Below are positions 6,796-26,926 of a stretch of DNA of 44,913 bases, one piece after another. The stretch lies in the IMG/VR virus record IMGVR_UViG_3300023223_000371, positions 1 to 44,913 of that record; one strand, given 5' to 3'. The notes under the pieces are model-generated. The model was not told where the DNA came from. It searched no databases and saw nothing but the letters and a program-made list of their open reading frames with translations. The translations under genes and the position numbers were made by a program. The DNA is from a virus. Position 1 is the stretch's first letter, and the number at the start of each line of letters is the position of its first letter.

Positions 6796-6944
6796 TTCCG
6801 CATCCTAAAGAATCGTTGCATTTCTCGTTGATTATCCCAATAAGTTCTGAGACTAGGAGTATCTAAACCTCCTGCCTGTTTCTTTAAAAACTCCCGTCCG
6901 GTATCACTAAGGGACTCAAGATACTCTCTATACGCCCAGCTCAT
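6792..6944 (-). CDS. Small hypothetical protein (50 aa)
   Basis: This minus-strand frame begins MSWAYREYLESLSDTGREFL and ends MQRFFRMRK. Both ends are ATGA overlaps with neighbouring genes, so it fills what would otherwise be a gap in the operon. The product looks like two amphipathic helices with a basic C-terminus. No family is recognised. Confidence 0.7.
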   Translation of the reverse strand: MSWAYREYLESLSDTGREFLKKQAGGLDTPSLRTYWDNQREMQRFFRMRK

Positions 6945-7246
6945 TTTATTGTCCTTTTTTTGTAGTGGGAGTTTGCTATGGTATCTACACGTTCTACAGA
7001 GTAGTCATTATTTCCCCATATATCAGTCTCAAGAGGTTTCAGTCCTCTGGATTTCCTATCGCTTGCGATATACTCGGATACCACCTCCAAAACCGGTTTG
7101 TATCCAAAAATATCGGGAACAAAAACACATCTACAACCATTCGGGCCATAACTGAATTTTACACGTTTTTTTGATTTAAGCCACTCGTCGGTTCGATAGG
7201 TAATTCTTGCGGCTATTACAGCCTCATCTACTTCTGATTGAGTCAT
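6941..7246 (-). CDS. Hypothetical protein, first gene of the minus-strand operon
   Basis: This 101-aa protein opens the 11-gene operon that ends at 3242. Its N-terminus (MTQSEVDEAVIAARITYRTD) is helical and the middle is beta-rich (VKFSYGPNGCRCVFVP). No family is recognised. The leader holds the phage's CGTAACCATTAACAACGAGAG sequence and a promoter, so its expression should be coordinated with other genes that carry this leader. Confidence 0.68.
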   Translation of the reverse strand: MTQSEVDEAVIAARITYRTDEWLKSKKRVKFSYGPNGCRCVFVPDIFGYKPVLEVVSEYIASDRKSRGLKPLETDIWGNNDYSVERVDTIANSHYKKRTIK

Positions 7247-7258
7247 TCGTTCTCTCTC

Positions 7259-7308
7259 GTTGTTAATGGTTACGAAACTACCCTACACCGTGGTTGGCAG
7301 AAATACAA
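7259..7308 (-). promoter_or_regulatory. Promoter and leader of the minus-strand operon
   Basis: On the minus strand TTGTAT (7308-7303), a 17-base spacer and TAGGGT (7285-7280) are followed after 5 bases by CGTAACCATTAACAACG (7275-7259). The spacer contains TTTCTGCCAA, the reverse complement of the TTGGCAGAAA element of three other promoters. The same -10/leader spacing occurs at four plus-strand promoters (17653, 18313, 20118, 21573) and one base shorter at 10721. Confidence 0.65.
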
Positions 7309-7309
7309 A

Positions 7310-10300
7310 CTAGGAAAACAAAGATTGTTCATCAGTTTTCGCTAAATAATCGACACGTTGTTTTTTTACGACACGAAAATTATATCTAAACACCTCTCGT
7401 TTAATGAAATCCTTAAGGTCTTTATGATTTTGATTCTTGATATACTTTTCACTTGTTTCGCCTATGAGAGATTTATAAAAATCTTTTAGTGGTAACGAAT
7501 CAGTGAGTTTATCTAAACACTTCTTAAGAACCTCACTCAAAGTTTCATGTCGGATAATGACGTCTCTGACGTTCTTTCCGTCCAGTTTTTTCCACTTCTT
7601 ATACTCAAAATCTGCTAACATTGGGTCACGATCAGTTACTATCATGTTGAGGATAAGTTTCTTATTGAGATCTAACTTTTTTGCCATAGCCAAAACACCG
7701 GAGGCGTCTCCCGGTTCGATATTGTAAAGAGCTGCACGTATCTTTATAAGTTCGTCAATGCACTCTAAATACGGTTGAACCTGTGTAGGGATCTTTTTGC
7801 TTTTCATCGTCCACACATTGACTGTTTTTACTATAAGGTTCAAACTTTCGTACTGACAGGACTTAGGGAGTACTAAAATGTGTTCGTTGTTGTGAGGCGC
7901 TATTTTATCCCCGTGGGATATTCGATAGTTGTTGACAACATCGTGAGATCTGTAACCTACGTTACGACTGATAACTTGATTAATTAAGTTCTGAAAAATA
8001 AGTTTCTGTGCTCGTTCCGGTTTAATTCCGGTAGCATAAGATATTTCCGCTATCTGTTCGGGTGTCGGATTTGTTATGAGAGAGATAACTCGTGAATTCA
8101 AATAATCATTCGAACCGATAACACGTTTTAGATTGTTGAACTTCGTTAAAGATTTTCCGCTTACGTCACAACCGTTAGTCATTAACGTATAAATATTACT
8201 GTTGACCTGTCCGGCGTATATGGCCCGGGGAGAAATCTCCCGTGTATCTTCCTCATTTCGGAACGGTGCGAACCCTGCACCAAGGTCCGGTGACAATACT
8301 ACGTGAAGGTCATTATCAAGAATAGGTGACATTTTCTTACCATACGTCGTCACATCTTCAAACCCGTTATGTTTTAAAGTTCGTTCAAGGCCATGGTCAG
8401 CATTAATGAAGATTGCCACATGTGACTTTAGAAATTTTACAAAATCGGTCTGACGCTCACGGGAAGGCAAATACGGCGGCGGCATTTCTACTCCGTAAAC
8501 GGTAACGGTGGCTTGATCCAAAAACTTTTCCGGTTCGACAACGTCGATTGGTTCCGCTTCGTCAAAGATTATTTGATGAGTATTAACGATTCCTTGAACT
8601 CCCGGACGTGAACAGATAGTCAAAAACTTGGCATGAGTGATAACTGAAGTGTGTCCGGCCTCAAGTTTCTCTATACGTTTCTTATTCTCTTTAGTGAGTT
8701 GGGATGCTTGTACGGGATAAAATTCTTTTATGTACTCAGGGAACGACTTAATGTACCAGTACCTGCCCCTGCGAATATGTAATGGACCTTTAATTGCGTC
8801 GGGTAAATTCTCGTTAAGTTCAAAAAGTTGTATTTGTGCGACCTCGTACAGTGGATTATACTCGTTATCGTACTTAGTCCTAAGTATTGCAATCGCTTCT
8901 TTGTCACCGGAACAAATTATCGGTATGAGTTCACGATAGGATAAGACTTGATTGATCCTTTTACGGGAAATCTTTTTTAGCAGATCAAGTATTTGTTTGT
9001 TGGATGGTGCGAGATATATTCCTCCGTTCGTTTCTAACAGTTCAACGGCTGAAGTACTTTTACCTGCCCCGGGAGGCGGGTTAAGAAACGCCGCTCCTTT
9101 CGTCATGGAAAGTAGCTCTTTCGTTACTTTCTTTGACTCTCTTGCGGCGTATTCGAATGTTTCTGCCGTAGATTTAACTTTATCGAAGTCTCTTGCGGGA
9201 TAAAAGACTTCCCCACCGCTGTTACGCAAATGGGTTATATCGAGCTTTTTTCCGGCGGCTGTCTCCGCTTCGCTCCTTTGATACCAGTCTCTAGTTATCT
9301 TGTGCCATAGTTGAACACTCGGGGCGATCTTCGCCCCCGTGTTATCCATCTCTGAAATTATGGCGTCGTAGAAGTAAGCGTAATATTGTTCAGGTGTCAA
9401 GTTGTCCCTGTAATATCTTTTAGCTTTTGATACTTCTTGAAAAATTGCTAACTCTCGTTCTCCTGCTTTTGGTGGCCCGTCCGGCCAATGGAACCGATTG
9501 ATACCTTCCGGTAATTCTTCTATCGTATCCGGCAACGGTACAGGCAACTTGAGGTTAACCATTTCGTACCCTGAGATCTCACACTTTACTTTTTCATATT
9601 CTTCAAGTTTGCCGAAGTAATCCACAGGCAAGACGTTCTCCGCTAGTTCGTCCATACCCATGTCGAAAAAATACTTAGCCTCTGTGACAGGCGCACCGGA
9701 GCGATAGCCGTACGGTACGCGGGTGAGTGAGCCCGGATTTCGGGGATCAAGTACTAACGTGCGTCTATCGACCTCAAAAGTCATTTTGCCACGCTTACCG
9801 AAAACACCTTTAAAATCTTTAGCGATCTGTTTTACGGTTCGATCATATAGAGTTCGCCACTCAAGAGAATTAACGAATTTATCAAGCTTGAAAATTATGC
9901 GTATACCACCAGACGACGAACAAATTACGGAAGCATGAGAGCTAATAAACTCCGATTCATTCCACATAGAGTGTATGACATCTCTTGAGTCGGGGTAGTC
10001 TCTCCACTTCGTACGACCATCATGCCCGTACACGTCGATATCAATAGGTATTAGAAAAAACTTATATTCATCTTTGTGATCAAAGTCTGAGTCATTTACA
10101 CGGTAACGGTAAACTTTTGAGTCATGCATTCCGGGCATAAAGTAACAGTCATCTTTCCCTCTGTGCCTGTGCCCAAAAGTAGGTGAAAGGAATTCTTCAA
10201 GTGTTCGGGTAAACATCCCTGTAGCTCTATCGGGTGCGTCGGTGTGATCGTAGCCTGAGCGGTGCACACCGCGCGAGAGTAGTACAGGTGTTTTTTGGTT

Positions 10301-10321
10301 GACAGTCTGACGTTGGGGCAT
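7310..10321 (-). CDS. Primase-like (AEP fold) and SF2 helicase fusion replication protein
   Basis: This 1003-aa protein joins two recognisable parts. Residues about 85-205 resemble an archaeo-eukaryotic primase/polymerase core, with IDIDVYG (Asp94, Asp96), SSSGGIRIIF (135-144) and TLVLDPRNPGSLTRVPYG. The usual His of the sxH motif appears replaced (SGGIR). Residues about 410-820 carry NPPPGAGKST (Walker A), IIFDEAE (Walker B, 585-590) and NQVISRNVGYR, an arginine-finger motif VI, as in origin-binding SF2 helicases. The likely role is origin opening and priming. It is transcribed away from the control region at 10.4 kb by its own promoter, and its 3' end abuts the promoter of the next operon. 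A pure origin-binding helicase with a degenerate primase domain is the alternative. Confidence 0.78.
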   Translation of the reverse strand: MPQRQTVNQKTPVLLSRGVHRSGYDHTDAPDRATGMFTRTLEEFLSPTFGHRHRGKDDCYFMPGMHDSKVYRYRVNDSDFDHKDEYKFFLIPIDIDVYGHDGRTKWRDYPDSRDVIHSMWNESEFISSHASVICSSSGGIRIIFKLDKFVNSLEWRTLYDRTVKQIAKDFKGVFGKRGKMTFEVDRRTLVLDPRNPGSLTRVPYGYRSGAPVTEAKYFFDMGMDELAENVLPVDYFGKLEEYEKVKCEISGYEMVNLKLPVPLPDTIEELPEGINRFHWPDGPPKAGERELAIFQEVSKAKRYYRDNLTPEQYYAYFYDAIISEMDNTGAKIAPSVQLWHKITRDWYQRSEAETAAGKKLDITHLRNSGGEVFYPARDFDKVKSTAETFEYAARESKKVTKELLSMTKGAAFLNPPPGAGKSTSAVELLETNGGIYLAPSNKQILDLLKKISRKRINQVLSYRELIPIICSGDKEAIAILRTKYDNEYNPLYEVAQIQLFELNENLPDAIKGPLHIRRGRYWYIKSFPEYIKEFYPVQASQLTKENKKRIEKLEAGHTSVITHAKFLTICSRPGVQGIVNTHQIIFDEAEPIDVVEPEKFLDQATVTVYGVEMPPPYLPSRERQTDFVKFLKSHVAIFINADHGLERTLKHNGFEDVTTYGKKMSPILDNDLHVVLSPDLGAGFAPFRNEEDTREISPRAIYAGQVNSNIYTLMTNGCDVSGKSLTKFNNLKRVIGSNDYLNSRVISLITNPTPEQIAEISYATGIKPERAQKLIFQNLINQVISRNVGYRSHDVVNNYRISHGDKIAPHNNEHILVLPKSCQYESLNLIVKTVNVWTMKSKKIPTQVQPYLECIDELIKIRAALYNIEPGDASGVLAMAKKLDLNKKLILNMIVTDRDPMLADFEYKKWKKLDGKNVRDVIIRHETLSEVLKKCLDKLTDSLPLKDFYKSLIGETSEKYIKNQNHKDLKDFIKREVFRYNFRVVKKQRVDYLAKTDEQSLFS

Positions 10322-10350
10322 TATAATATTTCCAAGGTTTGATGATGTTG

Positions 10351-10381
10351 ACCCGGAAAGTTGGTGCTTTCCGGGTTTTTT
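10351..10381 (+). terminator. Strong intrinsic terminator in plus orientation, also a 5'-UTR hairpin of the minus gene
   Basis: The arms ACCCGGAAAG (10351-10360) and CTTTCCGGGT (10367-10376) pair perfectly and are followed by a T run to 10381 on the plus strand. In the minus direction it forms a stable hairpin in the leader of the primase-helicase mRNA, without a U run after it. It should stop plus-strand transcripts entering from the left. Confidence 0.8.
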
Positions 10382-10384
10382 ATG

Positions 10385-10424
10385 GTCACATTATTAGCAT
10401 AATTTGTGACACTGCATTTGTCAA
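10385..10424 (-). promoter_or_regulatory. Promoter of the primase-helicase gene with palindromic operator
   Basis: On the minus strand TTGACA (10424-10419), 17 bases, then TATGCT (10401-10396) make a near-consensus sigma70 promoter. The inverted repeat GTCACA-N14-TGTGAC (10385-10410) covers the -10 box, where a bound dimer would block RNA polymerase. The regulator is not identified. Confidence 0.75.
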
Positions 10425-10469
10425 TGTTAAACCTCTCCAAATATTAATAATACGTTTTTTCACCTGTTT

Positions 10470-10690
10470 GAAGCGTTACATCAGAACAAGTTACAGAATC
10501 ACGTGTATTTTTATCCCCTAAAAACCACAAAGTTACAATTTTGTGCATGAATTACAATTTCGTAAAGTGAATTACAAACGCTTGTATACCACAAAACGTA
10601 TTCTACGGAACCTATATATATAAAACGCGCCTATTTTATACTAAGTATGATTCTATAATTATACATTTTTAAAACCGGCGGATTTTGGCG
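10470..10690. other. Candidate replication origin / divergent control region
   Basis: The 459-base gap between the divergent primase-helicase and replication operons holds no credible gene. It contains TTACA elements at 10476, 10491, 10533, 10552 and 10572 (the last three are TTACAA spaced 19-20 bp), an AAAAACCACAAA motif at 10520, and an AT-rich block CTATATATATAAAA at 10611-10624 followed by GC-rich bases. Repeated short elements next to an AT-rich segment and beside an initiator-type gene is the usual origin layout. Origin function is inferred. Confidence 0.45.
10588..10680 (+). repeat. Noncoding module, copy A
   Basis: It aligns with 27297-27387: ACCACAAA, then TCTACG(G/T)AACCTATATATATAAAA, CGCG, an AT-rich stretch with TATACATTT, then AAAC and GGCG. 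The two copies lie about 160-190 bp upstream of the first genes of the replication operon and the virion operon respectively. Confidence 0.75.
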
Positions 10691-10708
10691 ACTTTCTCCA
10701 CTGTTTGT

Positions 10709-10771
10709 TTTCTGCCAACCTTGCATTAGAATAAAGATGAGTTCTATTATTTTTGTAACCATTAACAAAAA
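10709..10771 (+). promoter_or_regulatory. Promoter and leader of the replication operon
   Basis: TTGCAT (10721-10726), 18 bases, then TATTAT (10745-10750) are followed by TGTAACCATTAACAA at the usual distance. TTTCTGCCAA (10709-10718) lies just upstream of the -35. An alternative reading is TTGTTT (10705), 16 bases, TAGAAT (10727-10732). The gene start at 10781 is preceded by AAGGAAAAACC. Confidence 0.6.
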
Positions 10772-10780
10772 GGAAAAACC

Positions 10781-10996
10781 ATGACCGACGAAATAATTTT
10801 TATTAAAGATAAGACCATTGAGGCTTTCTCTTCACAGGCTAGCATGTTGATGTCATTTGTAGCAGATAACATCAAACACCTTCCCAAGGAGCAGCTGGTT
10901 AAGCTTTTAAAAAAGCTAGATTCCAGTAAGGATACAGTCCGACATTTGCAAGCTCGTGGGGATAAATTACTAAAAGAGCTCAATAATGAGGGGTAA
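10781..10996 (+). CDS. Small helical protein (71 aa), first gene of the replication operon
   Basis: The protein is almost entirely helical and charged (PKEQLVKLLKKLDSSKDTVRHL), with no family recognised. It has a good ribosome binding site (AAAGGAAAAACC). Leading position in the replication operon suggests an early role or a partner of the next, possibly DNA-binding, protein. That is inference from position only. Confidence 0.65.
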   Translation: MTDEIIFIKDKTIEAFSSQASMLMSFVADNIKHLPKEQLVKLLKKLDSSKDTVRHLQARGDKLLKELNNEG

Positions 10997-11000
10997 TATT

Positions 11001-11396
11001 ATGTCTAAATCCAAACGATACCAGAAAGAAAAAAACTATTACGACACTCAGACTTTTGAATGTTTGATCCCCCGAGAATTTAACAAAGAACAATTTGTAC
11101 GTGCTCTTGATGCCCTTAACGAGGCGTTTGACGCCTTATACGGAGAAAATCTAATTGACTCAAAAACTCAGTTCAGCGCTGCTCTGGCTAGTATGCGCGA
11201 TGTACCTATACCTATTTGTGATGCAGCCGCAATCTGCCAAACCACGAGACAGTGGTTTAGAAATCTCGAAAGCCAAGGACGAATCAAGCTCATACGAGCT
11301 AAAGACATCGGGGATATCTCAAAAAAATCCGGTCACGGTAGAAAATGTTTCGTTCATCCCACGTACATCACAAAAATACTTAACGGAGATATCTAA
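11001..11396 (+). CDS. Putative helix-turn-helix DNA-binding protein
   Basis: I chose the start giving MSKSKRYQKEKNYYD because GAGGGG lies 7 bases upstream; an in-frame ATG 15 bases earlier would overlap the previous gene and has no such site. The 131-aa product contains IPICDAAAICQTTRQWFRNL then ESQGRIKLIRA, which looks like a winged-helix or MerR/excisionase-type helix-turn-helix in which the second helix reads DNA. The C-terminus is basic with a GHGRKCFVHP segment. It could regulate the promoters in this region or assist replication initiation. Family identity is uncertain. Confidence 0.62.
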   Translation: MSKSKRYQKEKNYYDTQTFECLIPREFNKEQFVRALDALNEAFDALYGENLIDSKTQFSAALASMRDVPIPICDAAAICQTTRQWFRNLESQGRIKLIRAKDIGDISKKSGHGRKCFVHPTYITKILNGDI

Positions 11397-11397
11397 A

Positions 11398-12282
11398 ATG
11401 CCACAAAGACGAGCTTTAATTGATGGTGATATTCTGGTGTACAAAGCGGCATTTGCTGCTGAATTCAGTGTTTACCTTGATTGGGAAGAGGGCCAATATT
11501 ATAAAAAACGTGAGTATGCTCCCGAGAACGTCCGCAAGTCTCTTCAGTGGGTGTCAGTCGCCAATGATCCACAAATCGCTGTAGACGCGCTGAAAAGCAT
11601 GATCAGAGCAACGGTAGTAAACACTAATGCTACTCACATAACAATATTCTTATCACCGGACGAAACTTTCCGTGATAAAATAGCGGTGAGTCATCCTTAT
11701 AAAGGAAACCGTGAGGGCCGGAGTCGTCCGGCACATTACGACCTTGTACGAAATATTCTGATAAATGATTTCGGCGCGAGCATATGCGACAACATCGAAG
11801 CTGATGACGCATTAGGGATCATGCAAACAATGTGCAAGAGCAGAAATGAATCGTCGGTGATATGCTCAATTGATAAAGATTTACTAATGATTCCCGGAGA
11901 CCACTACAACCTTACCAGTCACAAGAATAGTATCGTCTCAAAAACTGCCGGCCAGCAACAATACGCCATGCAATTACTTATGGGAGACTCAACGGACAAC
12001 ATCGTCGGAATTAAAGGGATCGGACCGAAGACAGCCGAAAAACTGTTGAAAGGTTTAGAACCTAAAGACTTTTTGAGTTTGATTAAATCAAAGTACAAAG
12101 ATGAGTTCGGTGACGACTGGGAGAAAAGATTTAAAGAAAATGCAATACTCTTAAAGATTCTTACAAAGCCACTGAAAAGATACTCCAGTATGTACATGGA
12201 TATCACCATGACTGTTACCAGTATTGAGATCTTACTTGAGGGAACTGAGAGTGCTGGAAATGGATTTGAGGCGACACGATGA
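11398..12282 (+). CDS. 5'-3' exonuclease / flap nuclease (PIN/FEN fold)
   Basis: The start MPQRRALIDGDILVYK begins one base after the upstream stop. The frame is open further upstream, but that part overlaps the preceding gene. The 294-aa protein shows the FEN-type acid clusters LIDGDIL, NIEADDALG and SIDKDLLMI, then GDSTDNIVGIKGIGPKTAEK, the DNA-binding helix-hairpin-helix. This is the phage counterpart of the Pol I 5'-nuclease domain and of T7 gp6: it removes RNA primers and flaps and may degrade host DNA. The family A polymerase nearby lacks this domain, so the two genes probably share lagging-strand processing. Confidence 0.92.
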   Translation: MPQRRALIDGDILVYKAAFAAEFSVYLDWEEGQYYKKREYAPENVRKSLQWVSVANDPQIAVDALKSMIRATVVNTNATHITIFLSPDETFRDKIAVSHPYKGNREGRSRPAHYDLVRNILINDFGASICDNIEADDALGIMQTMCKSRNESSVICSIDKDLLMIPGDHYNLTSHKNSIVSKTAGQQQYAMQLLMGDSTDNIVGIKGIGPKTAEKLLKGLEPKDFLSLIKSKYKDEFGDDWEKRFKENAILLKILTKPLKRYSSMYMDITMTVTSIEILLEGTESAGNGFEATR

Positions 12283-12575
12283 GGGTAATATCTAGAATAA
12301 AAAAAGCAAAAAATATATGTAAGACATATGGGGATCACTATAAGTCCGGCAGATACGGAAATGATAAAATAGAAATATTAAATAACCTTCTTCGACTATC
12401 TGATGATGAAAGAACTCCCGATACCGTAGATAAAATTATAGGAAACAGTAGATGGACGGAGTGTATGTGTGATGAATGTGGTTCGCATACTGAAGCTGTC
12501 ATGGAGGTAGGAGAAGCTAACATGTGCTTAGGATGTTTATGTATGGCTTTAGAGACGCTAAAAAATGAAAACTAA
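12279..12575 (+). CDS. Small zinc-site protein (98 aa)
   Basis: The start overlaps the stop of the exonuclease gene (ATGA). The C-terminal half contains CMCDECGSHTE and MCLGCLCMA, two CxxC pairs about 22 residues apart, consistent with one bound zinc. The N-terminal half is basic (ISRIKKAKNICK). No family is recognised; a nucleic-acid-binding or adaptor role is plausible. Confidence 0.68.
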   Translation: MRVISRIKKAKNICKTYGDHYKSGRYGNDKIEILNNLLRLSDDERTPDTVDKIIGNSRWTECMCDECGSHTEAVMEVGEANMCLGCLCMALETLKNEN

Positions 12576-12714
12576 CACCACAATAATAGTCAGACCTGCA
12601 CCACGTCACGGATATTGTACGGAATGTGGTAAAGCAATTGTAACTGTCGATTATGAAACGGGGCACCCTTACGGGACTTGTGATAGTGGACATACGAGAA
12701 GGATAAAATTATGA
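12565..12714 (+). CDS. Very small zinc-ribbon-like protein (49 aa)
   Basis: This short frame overlaps the end of the previous gene by 11 bases and ends in an ATGA overlap with the next gene. The product contains GYCTECGKAI and GTCDSGHTRR, a CxxC followed by C-x3-H, the minimal set for a zinc ribbon. Coupling on both sides and the Cys pattern support it. Confidence 0.65.
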   Translation: MKTNTTIIVRPAPRHGYCTECGKAIVTVDYETGHPYGTCDSGHTRRIKL

Positions 12715-12914
12715 GTGGTCCTACGGATTTTCAACATATAGAAGAACTGGTACGAGTGTACAGCAAAATAAAATCTATAAGTGATCAAGTGTATATGGAT
12801 AATTCCCAATATCGGAGAGTTTTTGAAGAACTTTCAGCTCCTAAGAATAGAAAGGTAATAATAAATGCGGTGAATGAACTGGTAGCCATGCAGGAACTAT
12901 ATAAATCCTTATGA
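12711..12914 (+). CDS. Small hypothetical protein (67 aa)
   Basis: This helical, mildly charged protein (HIEELVRVYSKIKSISDQV) is coupled on both sides by ATGA overlaps. No family is recognised. It sits in a run of tiny genes between the exonuclease and the SSB-like gene. Confidence 0.65.
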   Translation: MSGPTDFQHIEELVRVYSKIKSISDQVYMDNSQYRRVFEELSAPKNRKVIINAVNELVAMQELYKSL

Positions 12915-13117
12915 CCTACTATGAAAAAATAAAAGAACATTTAGATTCAACACATCCTGTAAACCTGCGCATATGTAATGCGAGTTCGTGTGCATGTAAA
13001 GGTTGTTGCGGATCGGTGGACGGTAAACGAATAACTCAGCGGTATTTAGATATGTATTTGGCAGGAGAACTAGGAGAACCAAACAATCCTTGTAAAGTAT
13101 TTAGTAAATATAATTGA
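12911..13117 (+). CDS. Cys-rich small protein (68 aa)
   Basis: The middle carries ICNASSCACKGCCGSVDGKR, five Cys in 14 residues, with one more Cys near the C-terminus (NNPCKVF), which suggests a metal site. It is coupled to the previous gene by ATGA. Its last codons lie inside the first copy of a 28-bp duplication, so the duplication affects the gene end but not the frame. Confidence 0.65.
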   Translation: MTYYEKIKEHLDSTHPVNLRICNASSCACKGCCGSVDGKRITQRYLDMYLAGELGEPNNPCKVFSKYN

Positions 13118-13151
13118 CTAAAACATATTTAGTAAATATAATTGACTAAAA
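13098..13151 (+). repeat. 28-bp tandem duplication that creates a promoter
   Basis: A 26-base sequence (TATTTAGTAAATATAATTG and the following CTAAAA) occurs at 13098-13123 and 13126-13151, a period of 28. Each copy has TATAAT overlapping TTGACT. The duplication places TTGACT of copy 1 exactly 17 bases before TATAAT of copy 2. Confidence 0.92.
13114..13142 (+). promoter_or_regulatory. Near-consensus sigma70 promoter
   Basis: TTGACT (13114-13119), 17 bases, TATAAT (13137-13142). This is the closest match to consensus in the window and exists only because of the tandem duplication. It reads toward the DUF6948-like gene. Confidence 0.78.
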
Positions 13152-13164
13152 GTAAAATAGTAAC

Positions 13165-13192
13165 TTGAACATCTCTAAACGTGACTTATACT
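13165..13192 (+). promoter_or_regulatory. Second promoter upstream of the DUF6948-like gene
   Basis: TTGAAC (13165-13170), 16 bases, TATACT (13187-13192). A short hairpin CCGC-N6-GCGG (13200-13213) and the leader motif CGTAACC (13217-13223) follow before the ATG at 13244. Confidence 0.65.
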
Positions 13193-13243
13193 ATTATCAC
13201 CGCAACTAAGCGGAAACGTAACCAAAAACAATGGAAATAAAAA

Positions 13244-13591
13244 ATGTCCGAAACAAACGAAATCACCATAAACGGTGAAACCTACTTAAAGAAATCCTCA
13301 TTATCGGCGGAGACTGTCCTAACGAACCGCTGTGTTATTCGATGCAGAAACGCGGGGGTTCACGTCGGAGAGATAGTGGACAGAAACGAATTGGTGCTTA
13401 AAGTAAAAAACTCTAATAGAATTTGGAAATGGAGCGGCGCTTTTACATTGTCTGAGGTTGCCATGAACGGGGTAGATCGAAGTAACTCAAGAATTGCCGC
13501 CCTCTTACCAGCGATGGATCTGACAACCAATGATGTATGTGAGGTCATTCCTATTGCTGAAGGTGTTGATCTGTCTGAGACAAAAAAGTGA
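13244..13591 (+). CDS. DUF6948-like protein (115 aa), zero-frame product
   Basis: The middle has the DUF6948 pattern: VIRCRNAGVHVGEI, a strand with LVLKVKNSNRIWKWSGAFTL, SEVAMNGVDRSNSRIAALLP, then VCEVIPIAEG. In the family the corresponding stretch reads like RLWYW-GA-SL-LA-GV. The function is unknown, and the gene is common in phages and mobile elements. The last sense codons ACA AAA AAG before TGA form the heptamer A_AAA_AAG in the correct register for -1 frameshifting. Slippage would continue directly into the next frame, which encodes a (XG)30 tail. Two promoters lie upstream. Family assignment is from pattern recall. Confidence 0.7.
   Translation: MSETNEITINGETYLKKSSLSAETVLTNRCVIRCRNAGVHVGEIVDRNELVLKVKNSNRIWKWSGAFTLSEVAMNGVDRSNSRIAALLPAMDLTTNDVCEVIPIAEGVDLSETKK
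13582..13588 (+). promoter_or_regulatory. Candidate -1 ribosomal frameshift site A_AAA_AAG
   Basis: The zero frame reads ACA AAA AAG TGA. After -1 slippage the next codon is GTG at 13588, in frame with the glycine-rich tail. The same heptamer in the same register is found at 38359-38365 in the tail chaperone, where frameshifting is expected. Confidence 0.6.
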
Positions 13592-13779
13592 GTAACGGCA
13601 ACGGCGACGGCAACGGCTACGGCTACGGCAACGGCTACGGCGACGGCGACGGCGACGGCAACGGCTACGGCTACGGCAACGGCAACGGCAACGGCTACGG
13701 CAGCGGCTACGGCAGCGGCTACGGCAACGGCTACGGCAACGGCTACGGCGACGGCAACGGCAACGGCAACGGCAGTTAA
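13588..13779 (+). CDS. Glycine-rich (XG)30 repeat tail, probably a -1 frameshift extension
   Basis: The frame consists of 30 dipeptides in which every second residue is Gly and the other is Asn (13), Tyr (10), Asp (5) or Ser (2). All Gly codons are GGC and all others end in C, giving a 6-bp tandem repeat that is far more GC rich than the rest of the genome. It could start at GTG 13588, which overlaps the upstream TGA, or be added to the DUF6948-like protein by slippage at A_AAA_AAG. I recall Gly/Tyr/Asp/Ser-rich C-termini on some DUF6948 proteins, which would favour fusion, but this needs checking. The tail would be a flexible, possibly self-associating segment. Confidence 0.62.
   Translation: MSNGNGDGNGYGYGNGYGDGDGDGNGYGYGNGNGNGYGSGYGSGYGNGYGNGYGDGNGNGNGS
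13594..13776 (+). repeat. Hexanucleotide repeat (NNC GGC)n
   Basis: There are thirty uninterrupted units of GGC alternating with AAC, TAC, GAC or AGC. Length change in 6-bp steps preserves the frame, so this is a likely site of copy-number variation between isolates. Confidence 0.93.
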
Positions 13780-13814
13780 AACAAAACATTAGAAAATAAA
13801 ATTAGGAAATAAAA

Positions 13815-14657: not shown

Positions 14658-14663
14658 ATAGAA

Positions 14664-14698
14664 AAACCCCGTAGACATTGCATCTACGGGGGTTTAAG
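14664..14698 (+). terminator. Hairpin terminator after the SSB-like gene
   Basis: AAACCCCGTAGA (14664-14675) pairs with TCTACGGGGGTTT (14683-14695) around a 7-base loop. The tail after the stem has few T residues, so termination may be partial, allowing read-through to the polymerase gene. Confidence 0.75.
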
Positions 14699-14751
14699 TT
14701 CTCACTGAGGTGAATTCGTAACCATTAACCTACTTAAAGAAGTACTTTAAT

Positions 14752-16899: not shown

Positions 16900-17063
16900 C
16901 CGAAACCGGCAACCCCTCGACCCCTAAGCATAAACAGGTTACAGAGAAAAACACCCAAAAACCGGCCACCCACCGGCACCCCTGCACATGCGGTGGACGG
17001 TGTCCTACCGGGGAGTTAATGGGGAAACCCTGTTTTCCGGTAGAGTTAGAAAAAGTTGATTAG
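16896..17063 (+). CDS. Small Cys-containing protein (55 aa, GTG start)
   Basis: The frame begins at GTG overlapping the polymerase stop (GTGA) and encodes a Thr/Pro/Lys-rich N-terminus followed by HPCTCGGRCPTGELMGKPCF. The CxC-x3-C-x9-C spacing suggests a small zinc or metal site. Without this frame the polymerase would be followed by a 190-base gap. The coupled start and the Cys cluster support it; base composition is unusually GC rich in the first two thirds. The -35 box of the next promoter lies over its last codons. Confidence 0.62.
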   Translation: MTETGNPSTPKHKQVTEKNTQKPATHRHPCTCGGRCPTGELMGKPCFPVELEKVD

Positions 17064-17083
17064 CAAGCTTGACATTGTATAAT
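17056..17083 (+). promoter_or_regulatory. Promoter for the 17119-17633 gene pair
   Basis: TTGATT (17056-17061), 16 bases, TATAAT (17078-17083). Transcription would begin near 17090, which rules out the in-frame ATG at 17089 as the gene start and supports 17119. Confidence 0.7.
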
Positions 17084-17118
17084 AGTATATGTCAAAAACA
17101 ATAGGAAAATCCCCAAAA

Positions 17119-17406
17119 ATGAATAAACACACTATAGCTATAATTTTGATTGCGTTGTTCAATATATTTTTCGTAGTGAAAATAACGACTAATGCCACTG
17201 ACAACGGGGAGGCTATCAGATCCGTTTCTCGCGTAGTCGATAAGCTGGAAACAAATATTGACAAAGCTGTGACCAGTCGAGATATTAAAAAGAGTCTTGC
17301 AGACCTTCATATCCAAGTTAAAGAAATGTTAGTACGTCGTGAAGCTGATGCACGTAGAGCTGTCGTTATGTTAATTAAAATCGAAAAACTTTTAGAGCGT
17401 AAATAA
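17119..17406 (+). CDS. Membrane-anchored coiled-coil protein (95 aa)
   Basis: The start MNKHTIAI is preceded by ATAGGAAAA; an in-frame ATG at 17089 is excluded by promoter position. Residues 6-22 (IAIILIALFNIFFVVKI) form one membrane segment, followed by a charged helical region (RVVDKLETNIDKAVTSRD, ending KIEKLLERK) likely to lie outside or in the cytoplasm as a coiled coil. This one-TM layout is seen in inner-membrane spanins and XhlA-like proteins, but the location among early genes fits an exclusion or host-modifying role equally well. Function unknown. Confidence 0.7.
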   Translation: MNKHTIAIILIALFNIFFVVKITTNATDNGEAIRSVSRVVDKLETNIDKAVTSRDIKKSLADLHIQVKEMLVRREADARRAVVMLIKIEKLLERK

Positions 17407-17633
17407 TGTATCAAGACACTAAGAGTCTTATAACCGGTGCAGTGTTCGATGTTTTGTACAAGGACGCAGAGCACGAGCAGGTACAGACCTATTACGACCA
17501 TGAGGTATTGCCGGAAGATTTGAGAAATCATCTATCGTTGTACGGTAAGTATCAACCTCTAAAAATTGAATATAACGTCGTGTGGGTAGGTGAGGGATAC
17601 TGTCACAGTTTTAGATTCTCAAAGAAAGTTTGA
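17406..17633 (+). CDS. Small hypothetical protein (75 aa)
   Basis: The ATG shares a base with the previous stop (TAATG). The protein contains an acidic, tyrosine-rich stretch (LYKDAEHEQVQTYYDHEV) and a beta-rich C-terminus (IEYNVVWVGEGYCHSFRF). No family is recognised. It forms a two-gene unit with the membrane protein upstream. Confidence 0.65.
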   Translation: MYQDTKSLITGAVFDVLYKDAEHEQVQTYYDHEVLPEDLRNHLSLYGKYQPLKIEYNVVWVGEGYCHSFRFSKKV

Positions 17634-17642
17634 TATTTTTTT

Positions 17643-17703
17643 ACCATTACAGTTGGCAGAAACGCAAACATGCACTATTGTAGACTCGTAACCAATTAAC
17701 AAT
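17643..17703 (+). promoter_or_regulatory. Repeated early-type promoter, copy 1
   Basis: TTGGCA (17653-17658), 17 bases, TATTGT (17676-17681), five bases, then CGTAACCAATTAACAA (17688-17703). It is nearly identical over about 60 bases to the promoters at 18313 and 20118, including the upstream ACCATTACAG shared with copy 2. Confidence 0.82.
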
Positions 17704-17717
17704 GAGAGAAAAACAAA

Positions 17718-18002
17718 ATGACAACCTTCGAACTCACCAACAAACAGGCATTCATTCTTGATACCCTTAACAACATGCATTTCAAAGTAGCCGGTAAGGT
17801 TGTTGCTAATATAGATGCTGATGTAAACGAATGCGGCGGAGTTTGGATGATGATTAGAGGTGCGGGGAATGACGAGCTGCTACATAGTGGGTCAAACGAG
17901 TTTGATATTGACCACGCACTCAAGAAACTCCCTTGTAAAGCCAAGGCTAATGCCAAGAATGTGGATCTCGCTAAAAGAATGTTTTTAGCTTTCTATAAAT
18001 AA
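17718..18002 (+). CDS. Small hypothetical protein (94 aa)
   Basis: First gene behind repeated promoter copy 1, with AGAGAAAAACAAA before the ATG. The sequence starts with a helix (TNKQAFILDTLNNMHFKVAG), has a DVNECGGVWMMIRG strand pair and a basic helical end (KAKANAKNVDLAKRMFLAFY). No family is recognised. Control by the shared promoter suggests early expression. Confidence 0.7.
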   Translation: MTTFELTNKQAFILDTLNNMHFKVAGKVVANIDADVNECGGVWMMIRGAGNDELLHSGSNEFDIDHALKKLPCKAKANAKNVDLAKRMFLAFYK

Positions 18003-18016
18003 AATCAGAGGTAAAT

Positions 18017-18280
18017 ATGTTTTACGTAGTAGAAACCCGTCTCGGACCATATCCATCAACTATCACGGCCAGTAACATGCAAAAACAAGAATACTTTAGT
18101 GACCCATATAAAGCTTCTATCCATTTTGAGAAAGTAGTTTCATCAATAGAGGAACATACGGGGGTAATTGGGGTTGAAAGAGAGCCTGTAGCAGAGAAAT
18201 ACCAACTGGCGCGATCCGTAACGAAAGGATTAGGGGACACAATACATATTTTATTAGGAGCAAGGTATTTTGAGGACTAA
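18017..18280 (+). CDS. Small hypothetical protein (87 aa)
   Basis: Follows the previous gene by 14 bases with an AGAGGTAA site. The protein begins MFYVVETRLGPYPSTI and is mixed alpha/beta with no known motif. It ends the short operon before promoter copy 2. Confidence 0.68.
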   Translation: MFYVVETRLGPYPSTITASNMQKQEYFSDPYKASIHFEKVVSSIEEHTGVIGVEREPVAEKYQLARSVTKGLGDTIHILLGARYFED

Positions 18281-18302
18281 AAATAAACTTTAATATTTTT
18301 TT

Positions 18303-18363
18303 ACCATTACAGTTGGCAGAAACGCAAACATGCACTACTGTAGACTTGTAACCAATTAACAAC
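18303..18363 (+). promoter_or_regulatory. Repeated early-type promoter, copy 2
   Basis: TTGGCA (18313-18318), 17 bases, TACTGT (18336-18341), then TGTAACCAATTAACAA after five bases. From TTTTTTACCATTACAG through the leader it matches copy 1 except for a few bases. Confidence 0.82.
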
Positions 18364-18373
18364 GAGAAAGGAA

Positions 18374-18601
18374 ATGACAAAATCAATCATCATGAAATCA
18401 GCAAATCAAAGATCTAATAAAGAAGGTCGCTCTGAAGCCCTCACAGCAAGCCACAAGGCCGCTAAAGGTACTTTCGTAAGTTCTGGTAAGGTTGTCCACA
18501 CTCTTAAGCAGCAGAGCCGCCTCCTGAGTGACTTCACAAGGAAAGATAAAGTTAAGTCTGAGATCGTTATGGATCTTGCAATTGATTTCGCAATGTTTTA
18601 A
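18374..18601 (+). CDS. Small basic protein (75 aa)
   Basis: The gene sits directly behind promoter copy 2 with a strong AAAGGAA site. The product is rich in Lys, Arg and Ser (MKSANQRSNKEGRSEALTAS) with a hydrophobic C-terminal helix (EIVMDLAIDFAMF). No family is recognised. A nucleic-acid-binding or host-protein-binding early protein is possible. Confidence 0.68.
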   Translation: MTKSIIMKSANQRSNKEGRSEALTASHKAAKGTFVSSGKVVHTLKQQSRLLSDFTRKDKVKSEIVMDLAIDFAMF

Positions 18602-18614
18602 GGGAGAATTTAAA

Positions 18615-18887
18615 ATGAAAATATATAAAGTTAAGAAAATTCCAGCAGTAAATAAAAGTGTCGTAGATAAGACTATTTGTGATATTTGTAAAAATGATGT
18701 TTATGATGTTGGGGAGTATAATAGTCAGTATTCTGAGATGTATATGAAGCAAGGTGATGTGTGGCCAGAAGGTGGCCAAATGAAGGGCTACGAAGTAGAT
18801 TTATGTGTATCTTGCTTCGAAAATAGATTAGTACCCTGGCTGAGATCTCAAGGGGCAGAGTTAGATGAAATTGTATACGATTATTGA
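18615..18887 (+). CDS. Zinc-ribbon-like small protein (90 aa)
   Basis: The start MKIYKVKKIPAVNK has GGGAGAATT upstream; the frame is open further left, but that part overlaps the preceding gene. The Cys pairs ICDICKN (near 22-25) and LCVSCFENRL (near 66-69) fit a zinc ribbon, and PWLRSQG resembles the end of small phage zinc proteins of unknown role. It is the second gene behind promoter copy 2. Confidence 0.72.
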   Translation: MKIYKVKKIPAVNKSVVDKTICDICKNDVYDVGEYNSQYSEMYMKQGDVWPEGGQMKGYEVDLCVSCFENRLVPWLRSQGAELDEIVYDY

Positions 18888-18934
18888 GGGCGGTTCGATC
18901 AATACAGAGCTAAATATAAAAAAGGTCAGCAAAA

Positions 18935-19090
18935 ATGTTTAGAGTACGAATAGAAACGGAAGAAGGTTTGATGTATCACCCTGTAGATTTTGAAACGTTC
19001 TTAGGAGCATTGCACAAGTCAGCATGGTTGAACGATATGTACGGTAACAAGAATATGAAACGTAAAGCTACGGCTTTTAAGGAGAATTAG
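18935..19090 (+). CDS. Small hypothetical protein (51 aa)
   Basis: An AAAGGTCAG site lies 5 bases upstream of the ATG. The peptide begins MFRVRIETEEGLMYHPVDFE and ends in a basic segment (NKNMKRKATAFKEN). The next gene follows after two bases with GGAG at the proper distance inside its last codons. No family is recognised. Confidence 0.62.
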   Translation: MFRVRIETEEGLMYHPVDFETFLGALHKSAWLNDMYGNKNMKRKATAFKEN

Positions 19091-19092
19091 AG

Positions 19093-19347
19093 ATGGATAT
19101 CTCATTTAGAACTAATTTGGATTTGCACCCCTGTGAAACATGGAGTGACGCCGAAAGATTTTGTACTACTCATAACTTCATTCCACGCAAAGGCGACTTA
19201 ATAGCATCAGATGAATTGCGAGGTAGAAACTGGCAATTACACTTAAAGGTTGTCAGTGTCACTATCCGAGACGGACGTGCAGAGATCGAACTTCATATAG
19301 CAAATAGCATGACAGTTTCAGAATTTCAAAAATGGTATAAGAACTAA
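19093..19347 (+). CDS. Small hypothetical protein (84 aa)
   Basis: The sequence DLHPCETWSDAERFCTTHNF followed by KGDLIASDELRGRNWQLHLKVVSVTI suggests a small beta-barrel of the kind used for RNA or protein binding, but no family is certain. It is coupled to the following gene by a TAATG overlap. Confidence 0.65.
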   Translation: MDISFRTNLDLHPCETWSDAERFCTTHNFIPRKGDLIASDELRGRNWQLHLKVVSVTIRDGRAEIELHIANSMTVSEFQKWYKN

Positions 19348-19481
19348 TGCTAAAAGAGATTAAACAATTCCTCTGCACACACAGAAAAGGACCGTTGAAA
19401 AGTTCTATATTAGCAGGGAGACACACAGTCTTGTTTCGTGAATGTGTAAAATGTGAAAAGAAATTTATATTAATAAAATGA
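19347..19481 (+). CDS. Very small Cys-containing protein (44 aa)
   Basis: The ATG shares a base with the previous stop. The sequence starts MLKEIKQFLCTHRKGP and ends FRECVKCEKKFILIK; one C-x-H pair and one CxxC pair could bind zinc. The layout matches minimal phage zinc-ribbon proteins. Coupling supports it. Confidence 0.6.
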   Translation: MLKEIKQFLCTHRKGPLKSSILAGRHTVLFRECVKCEKKFILIK

Positions 19482-19489
19482 ACATTTTT

Positions 19490-19532
19490 CCGGAGTCAGG
19501 ATTAAACGCTGTCGAACAGTGCCGGACTCCGG
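19490..19532 (+). terminator. Intergenic hairpin, weak terminator or processing site
   Basis: CCGGAGTC (19490-19497) pairs with GACTCCGG (19525-19532), with a smaller CTGT-CGA-ACAG hairpin inside. No T run follows, so it is more likely an RNA-processing or attenuation element than a full terminator. Confidence 0.55.
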
Positions 19533-19548
19533 GATCTTTGGAGAGAAC

Positions 19549-19710
19549 ATGAATAAAAAAGATGAAGCAATATTAAGATGTTTTGATGAGATCCATACTT
19601 CCTTAGAGTTTGCCGGACTTCCATGTAATGGACTGTGGAATGCTATTATGGAACTTGAGAAAGAAATTAAAAAAGAAGATAAGAAAACCATTAAGGATTT
19701 ACAAATATGA
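19549..19710 (+). CDS. Small helical protein (53 aa)
   Basis: The ATG with GGAGAG four bases upstream gives MNKKDEAILRCFDEIHTSLE; an in-frame GTG 30 bases earlier lies in the hairpin and is less likely. The product is helical and ends in a Lys-rich stretch (KEIKKEDKKTIKDLQI). It is coupled to the next gene (ATGA). Unknown function. Confidence 0.62.
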   Translation: MNKKDEAILRCFDEIHTSLEFAGLPCNGLWNAIMELEKEIKKEDKKTIKDLQI

Positions 19711-20018
19711 AGAAACCTAAGATCACACGAGACGGAACGTATTTTTTCACATCTAAGAAAAATCCGGTTAATATTATGAAAGAAAGTATTCATAAGATAA
19801 TTACAACTGACGGACAGAAAGGAGACGGGTTTCAAGTACTGACAATTGACTGTTCAGTATGTAACACAGAGATAGGTCGTATATGGAACGGTGAGATACG
19901 TCTGAGGTATTTGTATCGTCTGGCAACGCTAGATAAGTGTATGGAGTACATAGACGGTGTGGAGTTATTCAAAGTGTTCTCAACGTTCGTACATGATAGT
20001 CGGTGTATAGATGTCTAG
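19707..20018 (+). CDS. Hypothetical protein with CxxC (103 aa)
   Basis: The protein begins MKKPKITRDGTYFFTSKKNP and contains IDCSVCNTEIG, then a beta-rich region and a final Cys (DSRCIDV). It overlaps the preceding stop (ATGA) and its last bases overlap the start of a 28-residue membrane peptide. No family is recognised. Confidence 0.66.
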   Translation: MKKPKITRDGTYFFTSKKNPVNIMKESIHKIITTDGQKGDGFQVLTIDCSVCNTEIGRIWNGEIRLRYLYRLATLDKCMEYIDGVELFKVFSTFVHDSRCIDV

Positions 20019-20097
20019 GTGGTTTTATATCGTCCTTGGAGTTTTCACATTTACGTTGTGGATCTTCATGGCCTATGATTTTATTAAAAGAATTTAA
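20011..20097 (+). CDS. Single-TM micropeptide (28 aa)
   Basis: The frame starts inside the end of the previous gene and encodes MSRWFYIVLGVFTFTLWIFM plus a short charged tail ending IKRI. Almost the whole peptide is one membrane helix with basic residues at both ends. Such micropeptides are known in phages as membrane modulators. Its small size keeps confidence low. Confidence 0.45.
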   Translation: MSRWFYIVLGVFTFTLWIFMAYDFIKRI

Positions 20098-20112
20098 CAT
20101 TTATTTAGTTTA

Positions 20113-20169
20113 TAAGTTGGCAGAAACGCAAACATGCACTACTGTAGAGACGTAGCCAATTAACAATCG
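20113..20169 (+). promoter_or_regulatory. Repeated early-type promoter, copy 3
   Basis: TTGGCA (20118-20123), 17 bases, TACTGT (20141-20146), then CGTAGCCAATTAACAA after five bases. It is identical to copies 1 and 2 from GTTGGCAGAAACGCAAAC through the spacer. Confidence 0.82.
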
Positions 20170-20186
20170 ACAAAGAGGAACGAGAC

Positions 20187-20378
20187 ATGAAATTTTCAGT
20201 AAAACAACAATTCGGATATAAAAAATATGAGAGTGATTTAGGTTTTGAAATATACGAAACTGACGAGTCTTTTGAGCTAACCTACTATGACACGATGTTA
20301 GGATCTTTCAGTAATGCTGAAAGCGCTATGGAAGCGGCTGAAAATCACTATATGTTTGAAGTTAAGGGGATTAAATAA
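20187..20378 (+). CDS. Small acidic protein (63 aa)
   Basis: This gene has AGAGGAACGAG before its ATG and lies behind promoter copy 3. The protein is beta-rich at the start (VKQQFGYKKYESDLGFEIYE) and acidic overall, with an alanine-rich helix near the end (NAESAMEAAENHYMFEV). This could be a small nucleic-acid mimic, but nothing proves it. Confidence 0.66.
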   Translation: MKFSVKQQFGYKKYESDLGFEIYETDESFELTYYDTMLGSFSNAESAMEAAENHYMFEVKGIK

Positions 20379-20379
20379 A

Positions 20380-20589
20380 ATGTACTGTCAAGCATGTAAA
20401 GAAACTCACGAAAATTGTCTCTGTGAAGGTTATGCCGTTATTTGTAGTTATGACGGGTTCGATTTTGCAACTGGTTTCATGGGAGAGTACGCAAGCGATG
20501 GAAAGTTTGCGGTAAACATCGATGGAGACGTTAAATTCTATTATGGACATACAGTTACGATTCGTCGTGAAGATGGAACAGGACAGTAA
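20380..20589 (+). CDS. Small zinc-site protein (69 aa)
   Basis: The frame start MYCQACKETHENCLCEG lies one base after the previous stop. Four Cys within 13 residues (CxxC and CxC) suggest a zinc knuckle. The rest is a small beta domain (YAVICSYDGFDFATGFM). An earlier in-frame ATG overlaps the upstream gene and is rejected. Confidence 0.66.
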   Translation: MYCQACKETHENCLCEGYAVICSYDGFDFATGFMGEYASDGKFAVNIDGDVKFYYGHTVTIRREDGTGQ

Positions 20590-20735
20590 TGGAACCTCCA
20601 CTTATTACACAATATATGCTGCTATGGATTATTGTCCTACTGAGCGCCATTCTAATTTTGTTAGTTGTTGGGAAAGTTCAACAGGATAATAACAGAAAGG
20701 AAATTATAAAAGAACTAAGGTATTTACGAAAATGA
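20589..20735 (+). CDS. Single-TM membrane protein (48 aa)
   Basis: The ATG overlaps the previous stop (TAATG) and the stop overlaps the next start (ATGA). Residues 9-28 (YMLLWIIVLLSAILILLVVG) are a membrane helix, followed by a charged helical tail (KEIIKELRYLRK). The layout is that of small holin-like or exclusion proteins; the function is not known. Confidence 0.68.
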   Translation: MEPPLITQYMLLWIIVLLSAILILLVVGKVQQDNNRKEIIKELRYLRK

Positions 20736-21046
20736 GCATAGAAGGGAAAGACTTTGTAATCCTGTCAGGAGGACTTGAGATACCTCAATACTATCATGAG
20801 TCTTGTATGGGTACGGTTTCGATATTAATAGGATCTTCGACATTTTCACCTGAGATAAGAGCGGAACTTGAGGATAAATATCACGATCATATACTATTTG
20901 TCAAACCAATCGATAATCCCTTTGATAGTATGCGCATTGAAGAACACATATCTCCACCATTACTGAAAGAACTTATACCAATGAACCGACACGAAAGAAA
21001 AAAACAAGAATCTATAGAACGTAAAAACAGGAAACGGAAAAGATGA
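20732..21046 (+). CDS. Hypothetical protein with basic tail (104 aa)
   Basis: The first 80 residues are mixed alpha/beta (FVILSGGLEIPQYYHES). The C-terminus is strongly basic (RHERKKQESIERKNRKRKR), as in RNA- or DNA-binding tails. Both ends are translationally coupled. No family is recognised. Confidence 0.66.
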   Translation: MSIEGKDFVILSGGLEIPQYYHESCMGTVSILIGSSTFSPEIRAELEDKYHDHILFVKPIDNPFDSMRIEEHISPPLLKELIPMNRHERKKQESIERKNRKRKR

Positions 21047-21453
21047 CTACAAAAGAAAAGATAGAAGTGATGCAAGCGGAGGATGAGGGAAAACCCCTTC
21101 AGTTCAGAGATACACAAATTCAGGATCATAAGTGGGAAGACTTAAATCATAAGTGCGCACTATGGAACTGGGAGCGTAACGAATTCCGTATCAAGCCTAT
21201 CGAGCCCAACGATTATCAACACGGTGACGTGTGGAGTAATGACGGTGACTGTACAATTCTGATCGCCACATACGGAGAAACTATGTTTTACACGTCTGCT
21301 AGCTGTGTCCATGAATGGCGAAAAGTTGAGGGAAATCTTACGTTACACCCGGAAAGATTTAAACTTCTTTTTCGTGAAAATGGAATCTGTGATATGTGTG
21401 GGGGTGGATTGACCGAAGGATCATGTACTAATCTCGATTGCGTACCTTTCTAA
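21043..21453 (+). CDS. Hypothetical protein with C-terminal zinc ribbon (136 aa)
   Basis: The N-terminal 110 residues contain tryptophan-rich strands (KWEDLNHKCALWNWERNEFR) of the kind found in small phage proteins that fold as an open beta barrel. The C-terminus has GICDMCGGGLTEGSCTNLDC, four Cys that would bind one zinc. It ends the operon, just before a large hairpin. Confidence 0.7.
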   Translation: MTTKEKIEVMQAEDEGKPLQFRDTQIQDHKWEDLNHKCALWNWERNEFRIKPIEPNDYQHGDVWSNDGDCTILIATYGETMFYTSASCVHEWRKVEGNLTLHPERFKLLFRENGICDMCGGGLTEGSCTNLDCVPF

Positions 21454-21458
21454 TACTT

Positions 21459-21545
21459 TCCGACCCTCTCCACTACTAAACTATAACAAATGTTAATTGC
21501 CTAAATGTTTGTTGCCGAACTCTGAGAGGGTCGGATTTACCCTTT
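21459..21545 (+). terminator. Long hairpin terminator
   Basis: TCCGACCCTCTC (21459-21470) pairs perfectly with GAGAGGGTCGGA (21524-21535). An inner AACAAA/TTTGTT pairing shortens the loop, and a pyrimidine run CCCTTTTT follows. It separates the accessory genes from the packaging operon. Confidence 0.75.
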
Positions 21546-21548
21546 TTG

Positions 21549-21599
21549 TATTTAAATAATCTGAAAGTACTGTATAGTAAACGCGTAACCATTTAACGA
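21549..21599 (+). promoter_or_regulatory. Promoter and leader of the packaging region
   Basis: TATAGT (21573-21578) is followed after five bases by CGTAACCATTTAACGAG, the same arrangement as the other phage promoters. The -35 (TATTTA or TTTAAA near 21549-21556) is weak, so an activator may be needed. The TTGGCAGAAA element is absent here. Confidence 0.55.
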
Positions 21600-26879: not shown

Positions 26880-26926
26880 GCTCCTTCTGGCAGAGTTTTT
26901 TCTGTCGCTGGACTAAGTAACCAGCA

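Follow-up and report, generated by a model that had tools for sequence, protein, structure and literature searches.

Genome and leader motif

The virus record IMGVR_UViG_3300023223_000371 was analyzed over its whole length of 44,913 bases (hereafter, the window; G+C 42%), with a focus on a 15-letter motif, [C/T]GTAACCA(N)TTAACAA, that is found in the leaders of early and replication genes. Both ends of the window share a 144-bp direct repeat, which makes it probable that the assembly is complete and either circular or circularly permuted. The genes identified include those of a SNF2-type helicase, a family-A DNA polymerase, a 5'-3' exonuclease, an Enc34-type single-stranded DNA (ssDNA)-binding protein and the terminase large subunit, together with portal, small terminase, capsid, head-tail adaptor and tape measure genes. 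A tRNA search of the window found none, no integrase or repressor was recognized among the proteins scanned, and no phage-encoded sigma factor was recognized in this genome.

The motif or a close variant is present at all eight places named by a sequence-only reading of this DNA, whose coordinates were right to within one base. The copies at 7260-7274 (minus strand) and 10754-10768 are exact or carry one change, those at 13217 (CGTAACCAAAAACAA) and 14717 (CGTAACCATTAACCT) carry two, and those at 17688 and 18348 (GTAACCAATTAACAA), 20152 (GTAGCCAATTAACAA) and 21585 (GTAACCATTTAACGA) contain a one-base insertion. The middle of the motif thus varies by one base in length, with CATTAAC, CAATTAAC and CATTTAAC as the internal variants.

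The signal lies in the placement of the motif and not in its raw count. An ungapped scan of the whole window gave 5 matches at up to 3 mismatches against 2.0 expected, which is not significant. In the gene leaders, by contrast, the motif occurs (up to 2 mismatches) in 8 of 73 against 0.075 expected, with a maximum of 2 in 2000 dinucleotide shuffles, and antisense copies at gene leaders number zero. These values are descriptive, because the eight sites themselves helped in part to define the motif and the genes counted (73-74) were chosen by eye from the list of open reading frames (ORFs). Counting both strands, the genome holds eight GTAACCA heptamers, seven of which lie inside the motif; the other lies at 26917, and the eighth motif site reads GTAGCCA.

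Every gene that carries the motif is preceded by a gap of 60 nt or more, and within the early/replication region the motif is found in 8 of the 10 gene-start gaps of that size, the two without it being those of the leftward 1003-residue ORF (10321) and of ORF 19549. No structural gene carries the motif; the operons that it heads lead into the SNF2 helicase, the exonuclease, the ssDNA-binding protein, the DNA polymerase and the small terminase, among others. The distance from the G of the motif to the ATG is 27, 26, 26, 34, 30, 26, 35 and 27 nt (range 26-35), and falls at 26-27 nt in five of the eight sites and in four of the five that lie outside the duplicated cassette described below. The Shine-Dalgarno sequence lies on the 3' side of the motif, which is mostly unpaired in the predicted transcripts, with little or no local structure at most sites. 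We conclude that the motif is a real control signal, although not an unprecedented one. A search of the window against Rfam gave 0 matches at the gathering score, placing the motif in no known RNA family. A role as a terminal-repeat or packaging signal was rejected, as no copy lies inside the 144-bp end repeat.

Motif sites and their promoters

The sites and the features around them are as follows (cassette denotes an 87-nt repeat, box the second shared element).

7260..7274, minus strand: leader motif CGTAACCATTAACAA, 27 nt (G to ATG) before the ORF at 6941-7246 (minus), head of the leftward SNF2 helicase operon
7280..7285, minus strand: -10-like TAGGGT, 5 nt before the motif, read from the sequence
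7293..7303, plus strand: GTTGGCAGAAA box, inverted relative to the leader motif
7303-7308, minus strand: weak -35 TTGTAT, spacer of 17 to TAGGGT
10709..10719, minus strand: GTTGGCAGAAA box, inverted relative to the leader motif
10745..10750, plus strand: -10-like TATTAT, 3 nt before the motif
10754..10768, plus strand: leader motif TGTAACCATTAACAA, 26 nt before the ATG of ORF 10781, which heads the 5'-3' exonuclease operon
13114-13142, plus strand: stronger promoter-like TTGACT-17-TATAAT, ahead of the 13217 site
13165..13192, plus strand: promoter-like TTGAAC-16-TATACT, 25 nt upstream of the G of the 13217 motif
13200..13213, plus strand: short hairpin CCGC-AACTAA-GCGG, between the TATACT promoter and the 13217 motif, read from the sequence
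13217..13231, plus strand: leader motif CGTAACCAAAAACAA, 26 nt before the ATG of the DUF6948 ORF (13244), no -10 at the 5-nt spacing
14667..14691, plus strand: terminator-like hairpin, after the ssDNA-binding protein gene and before the 14717 motif
14717..14731, plus strand: leader motif CGTAACCATTAACCT, 34 nt before the ATG of DNA polymerase A (14752), no -10 at the 5-nt spacing
17621..17707, plus strand: cassette copy 1, with box 17652-17662, -35 TTGGCA 17653-17658, -10 TATTGT 17676-17681, motif GTAACCAATTAACAA 17688-17702 and ATG 17718
18281..18367, plus strand: cassette copy 2, with box 18312-18322, -10 TACTGT 18336-18341, motif 18348-18362 and ATG 18374
20085..20171, plus strand: cassette copy 3, with box 20116-20126, -10 TACTGT 20140-20145, motif GTAGCCAATTAACAA 20152-20166 and ATG 20187
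21573..21578, plus strand: -10-like TATAGT, 5 nt before the motif, with a weak -35 TTTAAA at 21551-21556
21584..21599, plus strand: leader motif CGTAACCATTTAACGA, 27 nt before the ATG of ORF 21612, upstream of the small terminase

A tandem 28-nt repeat at 13098-13153 (plus strand) duplicates the promoter-like TTGACT/TATAAT unit ahead of the 13217 site. Further downstream, a short ORF at 13588-13779 (plus strand) is built of repeats of 6-bp units (12/18-bp periods) that encode an NGNGDGYG-type peptide.

The five sites reported to have a -10 hexamer exactly five bases before the motif were all found, the hexamers being TAGGGT, TATTGT, TACTGT, TACTGT and TATAGT. A further site, said to be within one base of this spacing, was misjudged: TATTAT at the 10754 site is two bases off, and an alternative -10, TAGAAT, lies 18 nt further upstream. 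An 87-nt repeat that contains the promoter TTGGCA-17-TATTGT/TACTGT plus the leader accounts for the sites at 17688, 18348 and 20152; as these three are copies (93% and 76% identical), they count as one event. The test of the -10 offset gave p=0.0004 when all eight sites were included; p was 0.005-0.014 when a single copy stood for the cassette and 0.10 when the cassette was left out. The sites that break the -10 spacing keep their position relative to the start codon, and the start-codon distance is at least as constant as the -10 distance.

The proposal that the motif forms the first transcribed bases agrees with its position at about +1 to +15 of a predicted sigma70-type transcript in up to five cases, whereas 13217 and 14717 have no -10 that would place it there. 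As for a regulon defined by a fixed -10 distance, a shared leader on a defined gene set is retained, but the fixed distance is not supported as its defining feature: the spacing derives mostly from the one duplicated cassette and is broken at two or three sites. A Bacteroidota-type -7 element (TANNTTTG) was also considered; it fits the 10754 site only and was rejected by eye.

A second box in the same promoters

The GTTGGCAGAAA box is present in five copies (TTGGCAGAAA; 0.10 expected), all in motif-bearing promoters, one per promoter and each within 60 nt upstream of a leader motif. Its orientation differs between sites: it is forward in the cassette, where it supplies the -35, and inverted at about 7294 and at 10709. 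Because mixed orientation at promoters is expected of an operator, the box is a likely candidate for a DNA operator. The contrast between its mixed orientation and the leader motif, which is always sense, favors the existence of two different control layers.

Relatives and other features of the genome

A megablast of the whole window against INPHARED gave no match, scans of IMG/VR with TerL, PolA and portal gave no close relative, and no relative was found in GTDB genome contigs. The sole relative from the alignment scans is a 6-kb fragment that carries structural genes only, at 45-47% identity, while single proteins match distant phages at about 30-46% identity. A blastn search of the cassette in phages returned chance-level matches only, and a scan of IMG/VR for the exact promoter-plus-leader pattern returned none. 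For the pattern of leader plus ATG in IMG/VR, the matches listed are chance-like, mostly lying mid-gene or before tiny ORFs, and a few of those listed precede AAGGAG and a longer ORF; other carriers of the leader pattern may exist.

A second leader class, AACAGGAAAC(C), lies at the ribosome-binding site of mainly structural genes (2386, 2537, 21043, 29700, 34284 and 37934), and is found in 6 of 74 leaders at up to 1 mismatch against 0.26 expected. A 24-nt repeat, TCTACG[GT]AACCTATATATATAAAA, is located at 10602-10625 and 27309-27332, within the two large intergenic regions of high A+T content that precede the early and the capsid gene blocks. The 1003-residue ORF (7310-10321, minus strand) shows a P-loop-like stretch by eye and had no match in Pfam, PHROGs, PDB sequences or a tblastn of phages; it is perhaps an unrecognized primase-helicase. 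The region 10299-10383 (plus strand) contains a perfect sigma70 consensus, TTGACA-17-TATAAT, with a strong terminator hairpin (10350-10377) within about 25 nt, and possibly produces a short RNA of about 50 nt that would be antisense to the leader of this leftward ORF. Pairing of the motif with an antisense or small RNA was rejected, since the putative short RNA (~10334-10383) pairs no better with the motif leaders than with others (-8.3 versus -9.3 kcal/mol).

Possible function of the leader motif

The explanation we favor, which we consider about evenly balanced between right and wrong, is that the early/replication operons carry the motif as a start-associated 5'-leader element acting on the mRNA. 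The conserved sense-strand sequence GUAACCA(N)UUAACAA lies immediately ahead of the Shine-Dalgarno sequence at the head gene of each of eight early transcription units, and in the three cassette copies it comes with a sigma70-like promoter whose predicted start is the G of the motif. The leader would then raise or coordinate translation initiation of the early genes, either by way of the 30S subunit and S1, as a standby site of the ACA/A-rich type, or by means of an RNA-binding factor of phage or host origin. Where the motif begins the transcript, promoter escape may favor the identical sequence, and the GTTGGCAGAAA box, in either orientation, would serve as the operator that switches these promoters.

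This explanation is supported by the sense-only enrichment in leaders, the placement in gaps of at least 60 nt, the confinement of the heptamer, the unpaired state of the motif and its distance to the ATG, as well as by the sites at 13217 and 14717, which keep their start-codon position without the usual -10. Moreover, the internal length variation of one base should be easier to accommodate in single-stranded RNA than in a rigid DNA site, which argues for an RNA element. An ACA upstream of the Shine-Dalgarno sequence is a proven translation-enhancing module in Salmonella (PMC3879156) and, with the initial transcribed sequences described in PMC12464699, gives both the translation and the promoter-escape layers a precedent. 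Several points weigh against an element acting on the mRNA. At five sites a TANNNT hexamer stands exactly 5 nt before the C/T of the motif; the whole motif is conserved, which is more than a generic A-rich/ACA enhancer needs; the 14717 copy ends in CCT and has no ACA; and no relative carrying the early region, in which conservation of the motif could be seen, was found in the INPHARED, IMG/VR and GTDB scans.

The sequence-only reading had offered a 5'-untranslated-region element or an initial-transcribed-region signal, and of these the former, at the RNA level, fits better and the latter less well. As a signal of the second type, the motif at +1 to +15 would set escape, pausing or abortive initiation by the host RNA polymerase, an account that we regard as doubtful, though the best placed of the alternatives. 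Its G does lie 6 nt after the -10 hexamer at five sites (p about 0.005-0.014 with one cassette copy), and the initial transcribed sequence of T5 N25 alters productive efficiency up to 25-fold (PMC12464699). However, p rises to 0.10 without the cassette, the -10 is missing from that position at 13217 and 14717 and two bases off at 10754, and promoter escape does not obviously need 15 near-identical bases. Antitermination, also raised earlier, finds no counterpart here in its boxA-like form, as the boxA core YGCUCUUUAACA is not at the motif sites; the window holds three matches with 2 mismatches, none of them at a motif, where 8.3 are expected by chance. Binding of a phage regulator to the duplex motif at the start site, repressing or activating the early promoters, appears decidedly unlikely. 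The motif adjoins promoters, and the GTTGGCAGAAA box (5 copies, 0.10 expected) demonstrates that these promoters share DNA sites, but it is this box, with its mixed orientation, that makes the better operator candidate, whereas the motif has one orientation, is non-palindromic and varies internally by one base; in addition, the 14717 copy sits behind a hairpin with no evident promoter. A candidate DNA-binding regulator could be encoded by the early ORF 10986-11396 (plus strand), which is helix-turn-helix-like by eye (DAAAICQTTRQWFRNLESQG); this ORF has no Pfam match, and its single-sequence structure model is uninformative (pLDDT 42), so that neither lends the assignment support.

Two further alternatives are still less probable. 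A RegA-like phage translational repressor that binds the motif in the mRNA and later shuts the early genes off would be consistent with the closeness of the motif to the ribosome-binding site in numerous early transcripts. In T4, about 30 mRNAs are subject to competition between RegA and the ribosome, and the title of a study cited in the same source (PMC3014915) states that RB69 RegA selection yields UAA triplets, two of which are present in the motif. On the other hand, the sites bound by RegA overlap the AUG or lie directly beside it, a position further 3' than that of this motif, which precedes the Shine-Dalgarno sequence, and Pfam detected no RegA-family protein among the subset of ORFs scanned; the probability of such a repressor is low. 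Lowest of all we place copying without function, in which the sites descend from one duplicated promoter-leader segment and owe their similarity to common ancestry. Three sites are plainly one duplicated 87-nt cassette, and mobile regulatory cassettes have been reported in T4-type phages, according to a title cited in PMC4177764. Yet the other five sites share the 15-base core only, with unrelated flanks, which suggests constraint on the core, and all copies stand in the sense direction at gene starts.

Comparison with known systems

The closest known kind of element is represented by the start-associated sequences (SAS) and their extended form (ESAS) in Cluster K mycobacteriophages (Pope et al. 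2011, PMC3203893; also PMC11373665), together with similar motifs of Microbacterium phages. SAS are one-orientation repeats at the starts of non-structural genes, about half of them with an upstream promoter-like module, and their function is not established (PMC3203893, PMC11373665); ESAS comprise a SigA-like -35/-10 with 17-18 bp spacing and a pair of 15-17-bp imperfect inverted repeats. Like SAS, the present motif is short, asymmetric, in one orientation, and upstream of the starts of a subset of non-structural genes only. Like ESAS, a subset of its copies has a linked predicted promoter upstream, with a consensus match in TTGGCA-17-TATTGT/TACTGT at three sites. The sequences differ, GTAACCA(N)TTAACAA here versus GGGATAGGAGCCC in SAS, and the 13-bp SAS consensus GGGATAGGAGCCC (up to 2 mismatches) has 0 matches in the window. 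The motif starts 26-35 nt from the ATG, 5' of the Shine-Dalgarno sequence, whereas SAS overlaps the Shine-Dalgarno sequence a few nt from the ATG, and the GTTGGCAGAAA companion is single, unlike the paired inverted repeat of ESAS. By sequence and placement, the motif is best classed as an independent case of the same kind; it is not a strict member of the SAS family, because its sequence is unrelated and it is placed upstream of the Shine-Dalgarno sequence.

SAS-like motifs are also found in Cluster EF Microbacterium phages, and the lytic Cluster EC phage Quhwah contains 12 copies of an 18-bp motif located 22-30 bp upstream of starts (PMC7302621), a placement before start codons that is almost identical to the one described here. 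The consensus of the Quhwah motif, TAGaCTCTaGGTgTaAgC, is unrelated, however, and EC phages encode their own sigma factor, whereas none was recognized in this genome. The T7 gene 10 leader contains a similar A/C-rich unstructured stretch with an ACA just 5' of the Shine-Dalgarno sequence. The ACA modules of yifK and dppA (PMC3879156) resemble the motif in the same respect but need no strict position or longer sequence, whereas here a 15-mer is kept across eight operons. In T5 N25 (PMC12464699), bases +1 to +20 influence the output of a phage promoter, as the motif might; N25, though, has no shared 15-mer and acts through RNA polymerase escape, and several of the sites here are off the predicted +1.

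An extended version of the favored explanation, which we judge unlikely, is that of a phage-wide mRNA tag, in which the 15-nt leader would let a factor encoded by phage or host identify early phage transcripts as one class and give them translational priority over host mRNA while a separate DNA box switches the promoters. If true, the early regulon would have two layers of control, with a transferable promoter-leader cassette as its defining unit. Start-associated repeats are known by sequence in actinobacterial phages, without an established function. The occurrence of an independent version, of unrelated sequence, in a 42% G+C genome suggests that tagging early genes with a shared leader is a recurring phage strategy. 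The element is simple here, and its eight natural variants, some with and others without a promoter at the usual spacing, allow experiments to tell directly between an action on the RNA and one on transcription.

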